DNA of 64,000 nucleotides from the NCBI RefSeq assembly GCF_019469205.1, contig NZ_CP048265.1, forward strand, positions 744,001 through 808,000, in the 5' to 3' direction. The stretch is from Gilliamella sp. ESL0405 (GTDB taxonomy: Bacteria > Pseudomonadota > Gammaproteobacteria > Enterobacterales > Orbaceae). Under the pieces are notes generated by a model, which saw nothing but the letters and a program-made list of their open reading frames with translations, was not told the origin of the DNA and made no database searches. The translations under genes were made by a program, and so were the position numbers. Below are positions 36,590 through 42,319 of the stretch, one piece after another. How positions within the stretch are numbered: position 1 is the first letter of the stretch; every line of letters begins with the position of its first letter.

Positions 36590-37183
36590 CTAATTGTGAA
36601 ACTTATGTTGTGGAGTAAATATCTTCAATAATGTATTAATAGTTATATGGAAATAAGAGTCATCTTGCAATCCTTTTGCAGAAATATAAGCACCTTGCAA
36701 AGTAGACATTAAGAGCGTTGCTGCTTCTAATGGTGCAAGAATATTAGAAATACTACCATCAGCAATCCCAATTTTTATAAGACTTTCTAGCGTTTTCTTC
36801 ATAGACTCAAATCCACGATTAACCTCTGACGCTAACTTTTTGTTTTCCATAATAGCTCTATCTCGAGCCATTTGACCAACCACACATCCTCTATCTATAT
36901 TACGAGCTTTAAATAACAGATCTGAAAGTTTATTATATGCATTTTTATCTGTATTTAGCACTGAAGCATTAAAACTTATAAGTTGATCGACATTATATTT
37001 TATTGCATGTAGGCACAGATCCTCTTTACCATTAAAATAATGATAGAGGCTACCTTGACCGACTTCAGCACGAGTCAAAATATCTCTTGGGCTAGTAGCA
37101 GCTAGACCTTTTTCTAATAGGAGCTCAGCCATAGCTTTGATCAACTTTTCTTTAGAATTTTGTTTGTTATTCATTTTCACCAT
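36590..37183 (-). CDS. TetR-family transcriptional regulator
   Basis: A TetR protein of about 197 aa; the start could be the ATG at 37183 or 37174, and a GTG at 37198 lies inside a palindrome and is less likely. The helix-turn-helix reads GLAATSPRDILTRAEVGQGS and LYHYFNGKEDL, typical of the AcuR/NemR-like group. CVVGQMARD near residue 100 is also typical of that group. No target gene is obvious: its neighbour on the left is the other TetR gene and on the right a gene remnant. It may control a gene lost to IS activity. Confidence 0.85.
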   Translation of the reverse strand: MVKMNNKQNSKEKLIKAMAELLLEKGLAATSPRDILTRAEVGQGSLYHYFNGKEDLCLHAIKYNVDQLISFNASVLNTDKNAYNKLSDLLFKARNIDRGCVVGQMARDRAIMENKKLASEVNRGFESMKKTLESLIKIGIADGSISNILAPLEAATLLMSTLQGAYISAKGLQDDSYFHITINTLLKIFTPQHKFHN

Positions 37184-37191
37184 AAAACACC

Positions 37192-37211
37192 ATACCACCA
37201 GTCGATGGTAT
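37192..37211. promoter_or_regulatory. Palindrome at the start of the second TetR gene
   Basis: ATACCA and TGGTAT arms separated by 8 bases (ATACCACCAGTCGATGGTAT). It lies directly upstream of the TetR coding region, a usual place for an autoregulatory operator. Confidence 0.5.
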
Positions 37212-37223
37212 GATTATAATTAT

Positions 37224-37630
37224 TTATTCAATCTGTAAAATAGTATCTACTAAACGATTTGAAAAACCCCATTCATTGTCATACCAACTAACAACTTTGA
37301 GTAATTTGCCATCGATGACCTTAGTGAGCTTAGAGTCGAAAATAGATGAAGCTGGATTTTTAATAACATCAGATGAAACAATTTCATCTTCTATATAAAC
37401 GAGAATACCATCTATTGTTTTAGAGCTAGTTGCTTGTTTAATAGTATCATTTACTAGTTGTTCTGTCACTTCTTTCTCTAGATTTAAAGTAAGATCTATC
37501 ATTGATCCTGTAATTACCGGAACCCGCACAGATCCGCCGTCTAATTTTCCTAAATCTTCCTGAGTTTTAATGCCTTTGGCGAGCTCTGCGGCCATTTCTC
37601 TTATTTTTTTTCGTCCATTTATATCTACCC
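37224..37630 (-). pseudogene. IS256-transposase N-terminus fused to a GAPDH C-terminal fragment
   Basis: The open frame ends like glyceraldehyde-3-phosphate dehydrogenase: KLDGGSVRVPVITGSMIDLT, NPASSIFDSKLTKVIDG and WYDNEWGFSNRLVDTI, about 105 of the usual 330 residues, without the catalytic Cys. The first residues (IREMAAELAKGIKTQEDL) instead resemble the N-terminus of IS256-family transposases; the presumed transposase ATG is one base out of frame at a run of eight A. The junction is near 37550. The product is no working enzyme. The GAPDH end differs from the WYDNETGYS type usual in enterobacterial GapA, which suggests a foreign origin. Confidence 0.72.
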
Positions 37631-37857: not shown

Positions 37858-38976
37858 TGACCTTTCCCCCGAAATAAATACCAGAACTTAAATGAAATTT
37901 CATTAGAATTAACCAAACAAGGAGATCATATTATGAAAAAACGATTCACCGAAGAACAAATCATCAAAGCAATTAAGTGCCATGAAGTGGGAACCAAGCT
38001 TGACGACTTATGTCGAGAGTTAGGTATTCCATCGGGTACATTTATAACTTGCGTAGTAAATATGCCGGGCTTGAAGTGAATGAAGCTAAGCGATTGAAAG
38101 AGCTTGAATTAGAAATAATAAATTAAAAAATCTCCTTACTGAAAGAATTCTAAAAGTAGAAACGATGAAAGATGTGTTATCAAAAAAGTGGATATTGTTG
38201 CAAAACGGCTATGGGTTGCAACACATCTAATTGATACTTCTAAATTAGCCGAGGGTAGAGCATGTTATTTGTCTAATTTGAGTCGGATCGTCTATCGGTT
38301 TAAGCCCAAAGCAAAGTTAGATGACGGGCTAAGAGCTCATACAAAAGAGCTGGCTAGTTAGTATCGAAGATATGGGAATTTAATGTTATACAGCTTATTA
38401 AAATCAGAGGACCTAATTAAAAATAAAAAGAAAACTTATCGGTTATATTGTGAAGAAAAACGGCAAGTTAGAACCAAAAAGAGAGGTAAAATTCATCGTC
38501 AAAGAGTGCCATTATTATTACCATCAAATGTAAATGAACGATGGTTGATAGGTCAACTAATTTCAATCTCAATCAGTGGTCAGCAAGTGGCAAGATTTTA
38601 AACCAGTGGATAGAAATAAGGAATAAACCTCAATATATTACTTGTGATAATGGCAGCGAGCTTACAAGCAAAGCTATTTTATGGGGGGCTAAAGAAACAG
38701 ACACAACGTTAAATTTTATTCAATCTGGAAAACCGACGCAAAATGCCTTTGTTGAAAGTTTAAATGGCAAATTCAGAAATGAATACCTAAATCGGCATTG
38801 GTTTAGGGGGGTAAATGAAGCACGTTATGAAACTGATAAATGGCGCGAACATTACAATTATCTTCCACCTCATAGTTTATTAAATTATTTGTCATCTGTT
38901 GAATATGCTAAACAAGTGGCTTACTTAGTATGAATAATCTCATTTAAGCAGTGGTACTGTTATTGGGAAAAGTTCA
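37858..38976 (+). mobile_element. Decayed IS3-family insertion sequence
   Basis: Left end TGACCTTTCCCCCGAAATAA and right end TTATTGGGAAAAGTTCA (38960-38976) are imperfect inverted repeats. OrfA starts at 37933 (KKRFTEEQIIKAI, a helix-turn-helix transposase start) and is broken by frameshifts after about 40 codons. OrfB survives as pieces; 38541-38933 encodes the integrase core end with the DNGSE motif, WGAKETDT, and NAFVESLNGKFRNEYL with the catalytic Glu. A middle part of orfB, including the first catalytic Asp, is missing. The element cannot transpose by itself. Length of 1.1 kb is a little short for the family. Confidence 0.85.
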
Positions 38977-39249
38977 GTTATATTACCTTAGTACAAATGT
39001 TGTTTTTAACAACTCTCATTTATAATTAATTTGACAGTAAACTATTTTTTTGATCTGGCTCTCAAATATTGATCTTTTATATTTACTAAGATTTGAAATT
39101 ACTATATATAGATAATATGTTTAGCGTAAAAAAGTAAATCTATTTATTTTTTGTAATACAATTAAATGTTATTTATAGCTTTTTATTTAAGAAATTTAAA
39201 AACAAATATTATTTAGATAAAGTGTTTTTTTAACGATGGAGTGGAGAGA
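38977..39249. other. AT-rich gap left of the GNAT gene
   Basis: No gene seen. It should contain the promoter for the two-gene cassette that follows, but I cannot place a convincing -35/-10 pair. Confidence 0.4.
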
Positions 39250-40109
39250 ATGATAAATAAACCACAATCGTATCATTGCTGTTTTTATGAGAATTATTTT
39301 AAAACATCATAACTAAATATTTTCAATTTAATTATATAGATATAGTAATTAATGTCGCAAATAGAAATTACAAGATTGATCTATTTTACAATGAAATCGA
39401 TAAAATATACCAAATTGGTGTCATAGGTTATGGTGGTATATTCCCCGCACCACCAAATTGTTTTGTTCTTGAAGAAATAATTTCTAATCTAAAAATTATT
39501 CACGACATAGACATAAAAAAAATAATAATCCCTCCTCTTTTTCCTTGCGAACTTTCTGTAGAAAACATAAAAGATTATATGAAAACCGAAATGACTACTC
39601 AAATAATTGTAATGCAAGAATTTAGAGAGTTAGGTCATAACTTGTTTAAAGGTAGTGTTCGAACAGATATTAGATGTGCAGAAAAAAATCAAATAACAGT
39701 TCATCGTTATAATAAAAGTAATCGTAGAGATCTAATGCTTTTTTATGATTTATATATAAAAACCATGGAAAAAGTTCAAGCAAAATATTGTATCAGTTTA
39801 CCTTTGATCGAAGATTTGCTTAATGATGAGAGAAATGCAGAATTATATTTAGCTCACTATAATGACAAAATTGTATCTGGCAGTATTATTCTAAAATCAA
39901 AGAATAATATTTTTTACTGGATAAACGCTAGTGATAGTATTTCATTAAAATTTAAACCAAATCATAAAGTACTTTCACATATTATTAATGAGTATTCTGA
40001 TATGGATTATATCAATTTAGGGTTTTCACATAGTGATACATTAAGGCAATTTAAAAAAACATGGGGAGCTAAAGATTTTAAATATTATGTGTTTGAAAAA
40101 TTATTTTAG
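39250..40109 (+). pseudogene. GNAT/FemAB-like acyltransferase, frameshifted near its 5' end
   Basis: The C-terminal part (39579-40109, 176 aa) resembles GNAT/FemAB-type acyltransferases: FYDLYIKTMEKV, AELYLAHYNDKIVSGSIILKS, and INLGFSHSDTLRQFKKTWGA, a typical end of the family. The same frame is open back to 39303 with protein-like sequence (IGVIGYGGIFPAPPNCFV) but no start codon. An ATG at 39250 with an upstream GGAGAG starts another frame that stops at 39310, so a single-base loss near 39295-39305 best explains it. The full protein would be about 285 aa. It may act with the following gene; the substrate is unknown. Confidence 0.6.
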
Positions 40110-40163
40110 CTATTATCGTTCGTTGAAAAATTAATTATTAATTCAGTTAATTAAGGAGTTAAT

Positions 40164-41480
40164 GTGAAATCAGTATTTTTTATACCAACAAATAGAAGTA
40201 TTAAAGATAGTGTTAGTAGTTATATAAAGGAGGTTTTATATGCGAATGAGGTTTTACAAGTTAATATTCCTCTCATTATAGTTGAAACTAATGAATTTTC
40301 ATATATTGAAAATCATAAAATTATTGAATCATTAAAGAATCAATATCCTGAATTAAATATTCTACATCTTTCTGTAGATATACAGAAAAAGTATTTTAAG
40401 TCACTTTTTAAAAATATGAATGATGATTTTTATAAGATTTTTACTTATACAGGTACTGATTATGCTACGGCAACAAATAAATTGGGTTTATTTGCTTGTT
40501 CAATGGGGGCAGATGCCTATCATAGAAGAGATTCAGATACTTGTTTATTATTTGATAGAAGAAGTGAAGCCAGAAAGGTTTATCCAATTGAGTTTGAGTT
40601 AAAGTATTTGGGTAAACAAATAATAGAAATAGCTAATGAGCTAGGTATCAAAATTAATAAGCAAGATATAGACGATAAAAGACGAATACTTGTAGTTGGT
40701 GGAAATTATTTAGGTGAATGGAATCTTGATGTAAAAGATTTTGCAAAAATCTCGTATGACTATGTATATAAAATATATGAACTACTTGGTTTTAAATCTG
40801 AGCATATTGTTGATATTTGCGATGATATATTCAAATTAGATCAACCAATTCCTAAAAATGATGTTATTTCCTTAGTTACTTCTGTTAACGATGGATGCAA
40901 TCCTGACTGTGGTAATGTTAGTGTCTATCGACTATTTGAATTTCTACCAAACTTACCTGGTAAAAATACATTAGCAGCGGATTATTTCGCTTTTGATACT
41001 TCGACTGCATTAGGTTACCCATCTGTACATCATACTAGGCCTGTGTTTCATGAATATCATGACGAAAGATTTGACTATGATAAAAAACTAAAATATTGGT
41101 ATGGGATGTTGAAATTTGCAGATTATTTTTCACTGTATGGGAGTATTTACAACGATAAGCTTATTGATAACTTTTGTGATTATGATGATTGCTTCGTTTC
41201 TCAACAAATGTGTGAAACTCTTTCTGAAAAAATAACATCATTTGTTTCTAATGAGACTAAAAGGGAAGAGCGTATAGTCAGAATTATTGATGAAGTTTTA
41301 TTAGATTTTGATGAAAATTATTCAAAGATAGGACAAGAATTAAGGAAAGTCACTGCAAAATGTATTGCTGAATGTAATGAAGAATACCTCTTACACGCTA
41401 ACCTCTTAAATAATTGGAATAAAATAATTGAACAAGCCAAAAAAATGAATTTAATGGATTTTATCGATTTTGGGTTATAA
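40164..41480 (+). CDS. Glycosyltransferase-like protein (resembles DUF6271)
   Basis: A 438-aa protein with a good ribosome-binding site (AAGGAG). Features seen: N-terminal FFIPTNR, a Y-A-T-A-TNKLGLFACSMGA segment, then HRRDSD at residues 120-125, a DxD motif like that of GT-A glycosyltransferases. Further on are VVGGNYLGEWNLDV and NVSVYRLFEFLPNLPG with ADYF. From memory this order of motifs fits the uncharacterised DUF6271 family found in some natural-product gene sets; I cannot check this. It lies 54 bp after the GNAT-like gene, in a block bounded by IS3-family remnants, so horizontal gain is likely. Confidence 0.6.
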   Translation: MKSVFFIPTNRSIKDSVSSYIKEVLYANEVLQVNIPLIIVETNEFSYIENHKIIESLKNQYPELNILHLSVDIQKKYFKSLFKNMNDDFYKIFTYTGTDYATATNKLGLFACSMGADAYHRRDSDTCLLFDRRSEARKVYPIEFELKYLGKQIIEIANELGIKINKQDIDDKRRILVVGGNYLGEWNLDVKDFAKISYDYVYKIYELLGFKSEHIVDICDDIFKLDQPIPKNDVISLVTSVNDGCNPDCGNVSVYRLFEFLPNLPGKNTLAADYFAFDTSTALGYPSVHHTRPVFHEYHDERFDYDKKLKYWYGMLKFADYFSLYGSIYNDKLIDNFCDYDDCFVSQQMCETLSEKITSFVSNETKREERIVRIIDEVLLDFDENYSKIGQELRKVTAKCIAECNEEYLLHANLLNNWNKIIEQAKKMNLMDFIDFGL

Positions 41481-42229
41481 TCCCTCTAAGCTTTATCTGG
41501 TAACAGTACCTTTCCACAAATGAGATTATATACTTAGCCGTTTTTATAGTATATTTAATGGGTTAAAAATAATTTAATGCACTATGAGGCCTAGTTTGAA
41601 AATGGTTGTAATCTTTGCACCATTTATCAATTTCATAATGTACTTCTGCTTGGCTTCTTGATCCCTGGCAAAATAAGAAAAGTACACACCTTAATAGCAT
41701 TGTTGATGCTAATGTTCATATACCTCTAGCGATATTCTACTGCTTGCGGAATGAGGACGGTAAATAATATGCCTTTCTAAGAGACAATCTTAGCTATGTT
41801 ATAAAGCATCAACTAATCAATTTAAATATGATACGCTTGACTCAAAGACCAATTTTATGCTTTATCTAAGCTAAAACGAAATATCCAAGACTTAGCCCCT
41901 GAATCCTTAATGAGAAGTGAAAGACCATTTCCAGCGCTGTAATTGCACACTTTATTTTTTACAAATAATGTTGCAAGTTTTTCAATTAGCCTTGCAATTA
42001 ATAATTCTCCAATAAGTTTTTATGTATTGAATTCTGCAGGTAGGGAAAGACTTATTTAATAATAAATACAAAACGGCTATGATATTTTTCAGTTGGCTTT
42101 CTCATCCTAATATTGACTTAGGTAACTCTTAAAGAGTGAGTAATTGAAGGAAAAATAAAATCCGATCTAAAATGTAAAAGATAAAAATGGATAACTTTAT
42201 AATAATGTGAATTTTGAATAAAAAATAGA
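41481..42229. other. Gap with mobile-element debris
   Basis: About 750 bp without an intact gene. The left end holds an inverted IS3-family remnant (41502-41671). The stretch 41680-42060 has scattered protein-like pieces with many stops and may be further transposase debris, but I cannot name it. The last 170 bp before the tRNA show nothing. Confidence 0.5.
41502..41671 (-). mobile_element. IS3-family orfB remnant, inverted relative to the left copy
   Basis: The - strand reads AEVHYEIDKWCKDYNHFQT, RPHSALNYF, then a stop, matching the C-terminal end of orfB in the left element (ARYETDKWREHYNYLPPHS). After the coding part, both copies share AATCTCATTT and GGTACTGTTA. Only the last 60 codons remain. 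Confidence 0.75.
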
Positions 42230-42319
42230 TGGCGGAAGCGCAGAGATTCGAACTCTGGGAGGGTCGCCCCTCGCCGGTTTTCAAGACCGGTGCTTTCAAC
42301 CGCTCAGCCACACTTCCGC
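42230..42319 (-). tRNA. tRNA-Ser (anticodon UGA)
   Basis: On the - strand a 90-nt tRNA begins GCGGAAG, has a D-arm (GTGGCTGAGCGG), an anticodon stem-loop with CTTGAAA (anticodon TGA), a long variable arm as in all tRNA-Ser, the TTCGAAT T-loop, and ends CTTCCGC with CCA encoded. It separates the IS-rich region from conserved housekeeping genes. Confidence 0.95.

Follow-up and report, generated by a model that had tools for sequence, protein, structure and literature searches.

A small cassette next to the tRNA-Ser(UGA) gene of the bee gut bacterium Gilliamella sp. ESL0405 is an ordinary but informative relic, made up of an intact gene under selection and a dead partner gene, with dead IS elements on either side, at an insertion hot spot. 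The window, i.e. the whole stretch of 64,000 nucleotides analysed, corresponds to G000:C1:744001-808000 in a genome of 2.81 Mb that forms a single contig. The locus probably represents what remains of an accessory gene pair that entered Gilliamella laterally and settled beside this tRNA gene. One member, encoding a DUF6271 protein, has stayed intact under purifying selection, and the other, an acyltransferase gene, is dead in the window genome. We give a probability of about one half to the complete reading, in which the pair was laterally acquired at the tRNA, its partner is dead and the DUF6271 protein is kept as a GT-A-like nucleotide-sugar transferase.

The intact gene (40164-41480, + strand) starts with GTG and encodes a protein of 438 amino acids, with the HRRDSD motif at residues 120-125. 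An earlier note on this DNA had put this protein forward as a DUF6271 candidate and recommended a profile search, which proved positive: PF19787 (DUF6271) matches over its full length with 127 bits (cut-off 25; profile positions 7-430 of 434). No NCBIfam model gave a significant match to the protein. By sequence it is a new member of a known, uncharacterised family, to which Pfam assigns no function and which is mentioned neither by name nor by accession in the open-access literature searched. In the alignment of family members, the motifs PTxR and HRRDSD are both present in the window protein; the protein is itself part of this alignment, and the invariant columns are thus present in it by construction.

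The gene upstream is a pseudogene of the Acetyltransf_6 (GNAT) type (39250-40109, + strand), as seen from its alignment with five relatives and from tblastn. An A-run near 39301 has lost one base, so that the reading frame that begins at 39250 ends after some 20 codons. The remainder lies in another frame, where the first ordinary start codon, at 39579, leaves an ORF of 176 aa (39579-40109, + strand). In comparison, an intact homologue (L011, 7050-7946) encodes 298 aa, the ancestral length, and residues 31-298 can be aligned with the window remnant at 89.6 % identity (tblastn). The earlier note had described the first gene as GNAT/FemAB-like. Its acetyltransferase type holds, since the 176-aa ORF matches PF13480 (Acetyltransf_6) with 28.1 bits (cut-off 22), a match above cut-off that it has in common with FemAB-like/Acetyltransf_6 acyltransferases. 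However, the window copy is frameshifted, and its assignment to FemAB_like, at 15.2 bits, stays below the cut-off of 27 bits. Judged from its reading frame, the acyltransferase gene is dead in the window genome.

Similar damage is found in the other carriers. Of the six carriers, only G035 has a full-length acyltransferase gene, whereas DUF6271 is open in all of them. A one-base deletion is present in each of the window, G003 and G016; in G015 a stop codon lies 20 residues short of the end, with uncertain effect; and in G034 the block is shortened, the 5' part of the acyltransferase gene being replaced by IS-like sequence and accompanied by further indels. If both genes are weighted by length, the probability that five changes all fall by chance into the shorter one is about 0.01 (0.405 to the fifth power), to be read with the proviso that sequencing errors could account for some of the single-base deletions and that two of the relatives are metagenome bins. 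The idea that the pair presently modifies a product, as the earlier note suggested, is therefore not supported: DUF6271 is intact throughout, but its neighbour is broken in the window genome and altered in four of the other five carriers.

Both genes are much less diverged than two core genes nearby. When the window is compared with the other carriers, DUF6271 has a dS of 0.33–0.35 and the acyltransferase one of 0.30. The corresponding values are 1.54 for truD and 2.5 for nadR, the only two core neighbours used in this comparison, and lie near saturation. A dS of about 0.3 for the pair versus 1.5–2.5 for the core points to horizontal movement of the pair. Moreover, omega is 0.15–0.17 for both cassette genes (about 0.16 for DUF6271), which points to purifying selection on the pair during most of the interval after the transfer.

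DUF6271 occurs in 6 of 44 genomes of the family, all within Gilliamella; apart from the window's own copy, none was detected among 369 sampled genomes of the class or 398 of the phylum. No DUF6271 relatives were found in IMG/VR or in phage records. A block of 2.2 kb (39220-41464, + strand) is found with about 90 % DNA identity in the five other Gilliamella carriers, where it adjoins the same tRNA-Ser(UGA). In the window, this tRNA gene (42230-42317, - strand; ARAGORN, Rfam RF00005), the only structured RNA that Rfam detected there, has its 3' end toward the cassette, and the cassette is inverted relative to it when compared to the five relatives. In some carriers the tRNA is separated from the block by TraI-type remnants (TraI_2_C, Pfam) and a Cho-like ORF. 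In G018, about 54 kb (G018:C1:2172650-2226598, L055-L057) separate tRNA-Ser(UGA) from a 60-bp copy of the tRNA 3' end; judged by the sizes and starts of its ORFs, this insert looks phage-like. At the other extreme is the near-empty site of G027, in which the window's left-hand genes (HPP, TetR) are found some 200 bp from the tRNA. The G018 insert, the TraI remnants, the variable neighbours and the near-empty G027 site mark tRNA-Ser(UGA) next to tusE as a hot spot of insertion in Gilliamella. An intact island would be expected to end in another copy of the tRNA 3' end, but none was found in the window or in the rest of G000.

Beyond the block, in carriers whose analysed stretch extends far enough, lies an MFP-MFS-PPTase-AraC gene set. 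These genes were considered as a part of the DUF6271 cluster and rejected, the same set being present without DUF6271 beside the tRNA (G017, G036), past the insert (G018) or near the tRNA (G031). Since it occurs at the tRNA without DUF6271, the set was treated as backbone. In the window itself no biosynthetic genes are found next to DUF6271, the neighbours being IS sequences, TetR, a GAPDH fragment, the tRNA and tusE. The TetR gene and the C-terminal GAPDH fragment (36590-37595) adjoin the left IS, and this block of about 950 bp is found again elsewhere in several other Gilliamella genomes. Further away, between 15648 and 31440, a VgrG-like ORF (841 aa) is followed by a low-GC stretch (23–31 % G+C), in which peptidase-like ORFs recur and many small ORFs have signal-like starts; read by eye, this region resembles an array of type VI secretion effector and immunity genes.

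The cassette is flanked by IS3-type remnants in inverted order, as the earlier note had observed. On the left lies a degenerate IS3-family element (37858-38976, approximate ends from terminal repeats read by eye, + strand), which we take to be IS407-like from the start of its orfA. It is itself broken, its orfB being reduced to a fragment of 130 aa (38541-38933, + strand) that matches rve_3 with 79 bits and NF033516 with 87.7 bits, under the cut-off of 160. On the right, a remnant (about 41487-41646, - strand) begins some 6 bp past the DUF6271 stop codon and resembles the right end of the left IS in inverted orientation, with 73 % identity over 152 bp (E=4e-21; E=4e-17 in a second comparison). 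This similarity of the two ends is far beyond chance.

The earlier note saw in this arrangement the cargo of a former composite transposon. In such a scenario, two inverted IS3 copies would have moved the pair as a unit, or would have reversed its orientation beside the tRNA at a later time. Related ends on both sides in inverted order would fit such a history, as would the orientation of the cassette to the tRNA, opposite to that in the five relatives. However, the two similar, once-complete end copies of a composite IS3 transposon are not seen, the right one being recognised over about 150 bp only, at 73 % identity, and the left one being broken; no target-site duplication was seen by eye, and an intact copy of the IS is absent from 35 Gilliamella genomes. 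Nor is the block missing from IS-free relatives: five carry it without these IS ends. Their occurrence agrees with what the earlier note had named as evidence against its own proposal, namely wide vertical presence of both genes at the locus without IS ends, as far as the missing ends are concerned, but it does not reflect simple vertical inheritance. Because the remnants are no matching pair and the block is found elsewhere without the IS, the composite transposon is not supported, and we regard it as quite improbable. The two remnants would rather be separate, decayed elements and no proven vehicle.

What the surviving protein does is suggested by its motifs. PTxR, an Asn-Arg/Lys pair, HRRDSD, a DY pair and a later His are common to the DUF6271 proteins of Gilliamella, Apilactobacillus kunkeei and actinobacteria; HRRDSD is invariant in seven aligned sequences, and PTxR, HRRDSD, DY and H are invariant across the three lineages. 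In GT-A enzymes an N-terminal strand end of the type P-T/Y-x-R/N is followed by DxD and by a later Asp and His. We take the DUF6271 motif order to fit a nucleotide-sugar transferase. We thus infer a GT-A-like, metal-dependent nucleotide-sugar transferase, and with it fold, donor, acceptor and product: the N-terminal alpha/beta half with PTxR would bind the nucleotide, HRRDSD (DxD) would hold the metal and the diphosphate, and the conserved Asp273-Tyr274 and His290 would belong to the acceptor/metal part. The acceptor of the sugar or similar group may be a small molecule derived from an amino acid, or else a surface glycan.

Although the motif order is like that of GT-A glycosyltransferases (e.g., GT2, PF00535), it is accompanied by no significant profile or sequence match. 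Pfam yields no glycosyltransferase match for DUF6271 even at E=10, and a sequence search of the PDB returned chance matches only. A profile of the N-terminal part aligns in register with 18 GT2 domains at a weak score of 22.4; in the same test, unrelated families reached 10–17 and a true remote GT2 23.9. As 2 of 100 column shuffles scored higher, this signal is suggestive only. Comparisons of thin profiles with GT2, IspD and unrelated families by hhalign gave no signal and were underpowered. AlphaFold2, run on four near-identical DUF6271 sequences, gave an unusable model (pLDDT 38) in which the strand position of HRRDSD is unreliable.

The gene company of DUF6271 outside Gilliamella gives a hint as to the acceptor. 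The proteins of Streptomyces clavuligerus, S. chartreusis, Streptantibioticus cattleyicolor and Embleya belong to the same full-length family and have PTxR, HRRDSD, DY and H in common with the Gilliamella copy, to which they are about 20 % identical. In five actinobacterial loci DUF6271 follows a PhyH dioxygenase gene, and is itself followed by a PLP decarboxylase and an MFS exporter in two of them, with MFS nearby in a third, whereas the Gilliamella copy follows an acetyltransferase and is found without a biosynthetic cluster. One S. clavuligerus cluster comprises PPTase, a small PP-binding protein (just below cut-off), an aaRS-like gene, PhyH, DUF6271, a condensation domain, MFS and a transketolase pair. 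Small carrier-like ORFs at the S. cattleyicolor and S. chartreusis loci were inspected and dismissed as probable artefacts of high-GC sequence.

DUF6271 is also encoded on plasmids of A. kunkeei, likewise a honeybee symbiont (30–35 kb, pLPX-type locus tags; PF19787, 96.6 bits; 21.7 % identity). The A. kunkeei plasmid shares an aaRS-like gene, DUF6271 and the transketolase pair with S. clavuligerus and further carries carrier protein, MFS, ATP-grasp ligase, aminotransferase and methyltransferase genes. A compact cluster with an aaRS-like gene, DUF6271, the transketolase pair, a small carrier-type protein and MFS spans 7468-17866 in L019 (OX335123.1) and 10848-21629 in L020 (S. clavuligerus). 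In a main-text section of the plasmid study (Dyrhage et al. 2022, PMC9648514), the description of pLPX is confined to its surface protein. The tie of DUF6271 to natural-product-type gene sets, which the earlier note had suggested, is thus borne out by Streptomyces loci and by the A. kunkeei plasmid. Taken together, the settings outside Gilliamella point to amino-acid-derived small-molecule clusters.

These contexts also bear on the possibility that DUF6271 and the acyltransferase come from a surface-polysaccharide locus, as a glycosyltransferase and an acyl-/aminoacyl-transferase decorating an envelope glycan. Several relatives do carry a UDP-sugar dehydrogenase fragment (PF03721) downstream of DUF6271, and weak acyltransferase relatives outside Gilliamella lie among ORFs that, judged by their starts, resemble exopolysaccharide genes. 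However, the latter similarity amounts to 24–28 % over about half of the protein, and all annotated DUF6271 contexts are small-molecule-like (PhyH, carrier protein, transketolase or MFS), which leaves an envelope role conceivable but doubtful.

A stand-alone resistance or detoxification enzyme, which would inactivate a small molecule made by neighbours, could likewise explain why DUF6271 is intact and selected when the adjoining gene was lost by different changes, and why it lacks surrounding biosynthetic genes in Gilliamella. Its distant relatives occur in antibiotic-type clusters, one of them on plasmids of another bee symbiont. However, identity to the A. kunkeei protein is only about 20 %, so that no shared substrate is implied, and the two bee symbionts likely acquired their copies separately. 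No resistance or defence model matched (PADLOC for the latter). We consider such a function very unlikely. Slightly better, though still unlikely, are the prospects of a bolder version of the glycosyltransferase reading, in which DUF6271 would be a new GT-A-type family acting on small molecules; in Gilliamella the enzyme would work on its own, tailoring or inactivating its substrate, and would have spread laterally and been kept by selection after repeated independent loss of its partner.

The comparison is of use in several respects. It marks tRNA-Ser(UGA)/tusE as an insertion hot spot of Gilliamella, and it points to a conserved small cluster common to Streptomyces clavuligerus and a plasmid of the honeybee symbiont Apilactobacillus. 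Since the Gilliamella copies have no cluster and mostly no neighbour gene, they would provide a simple test case for DUF6271 alone.
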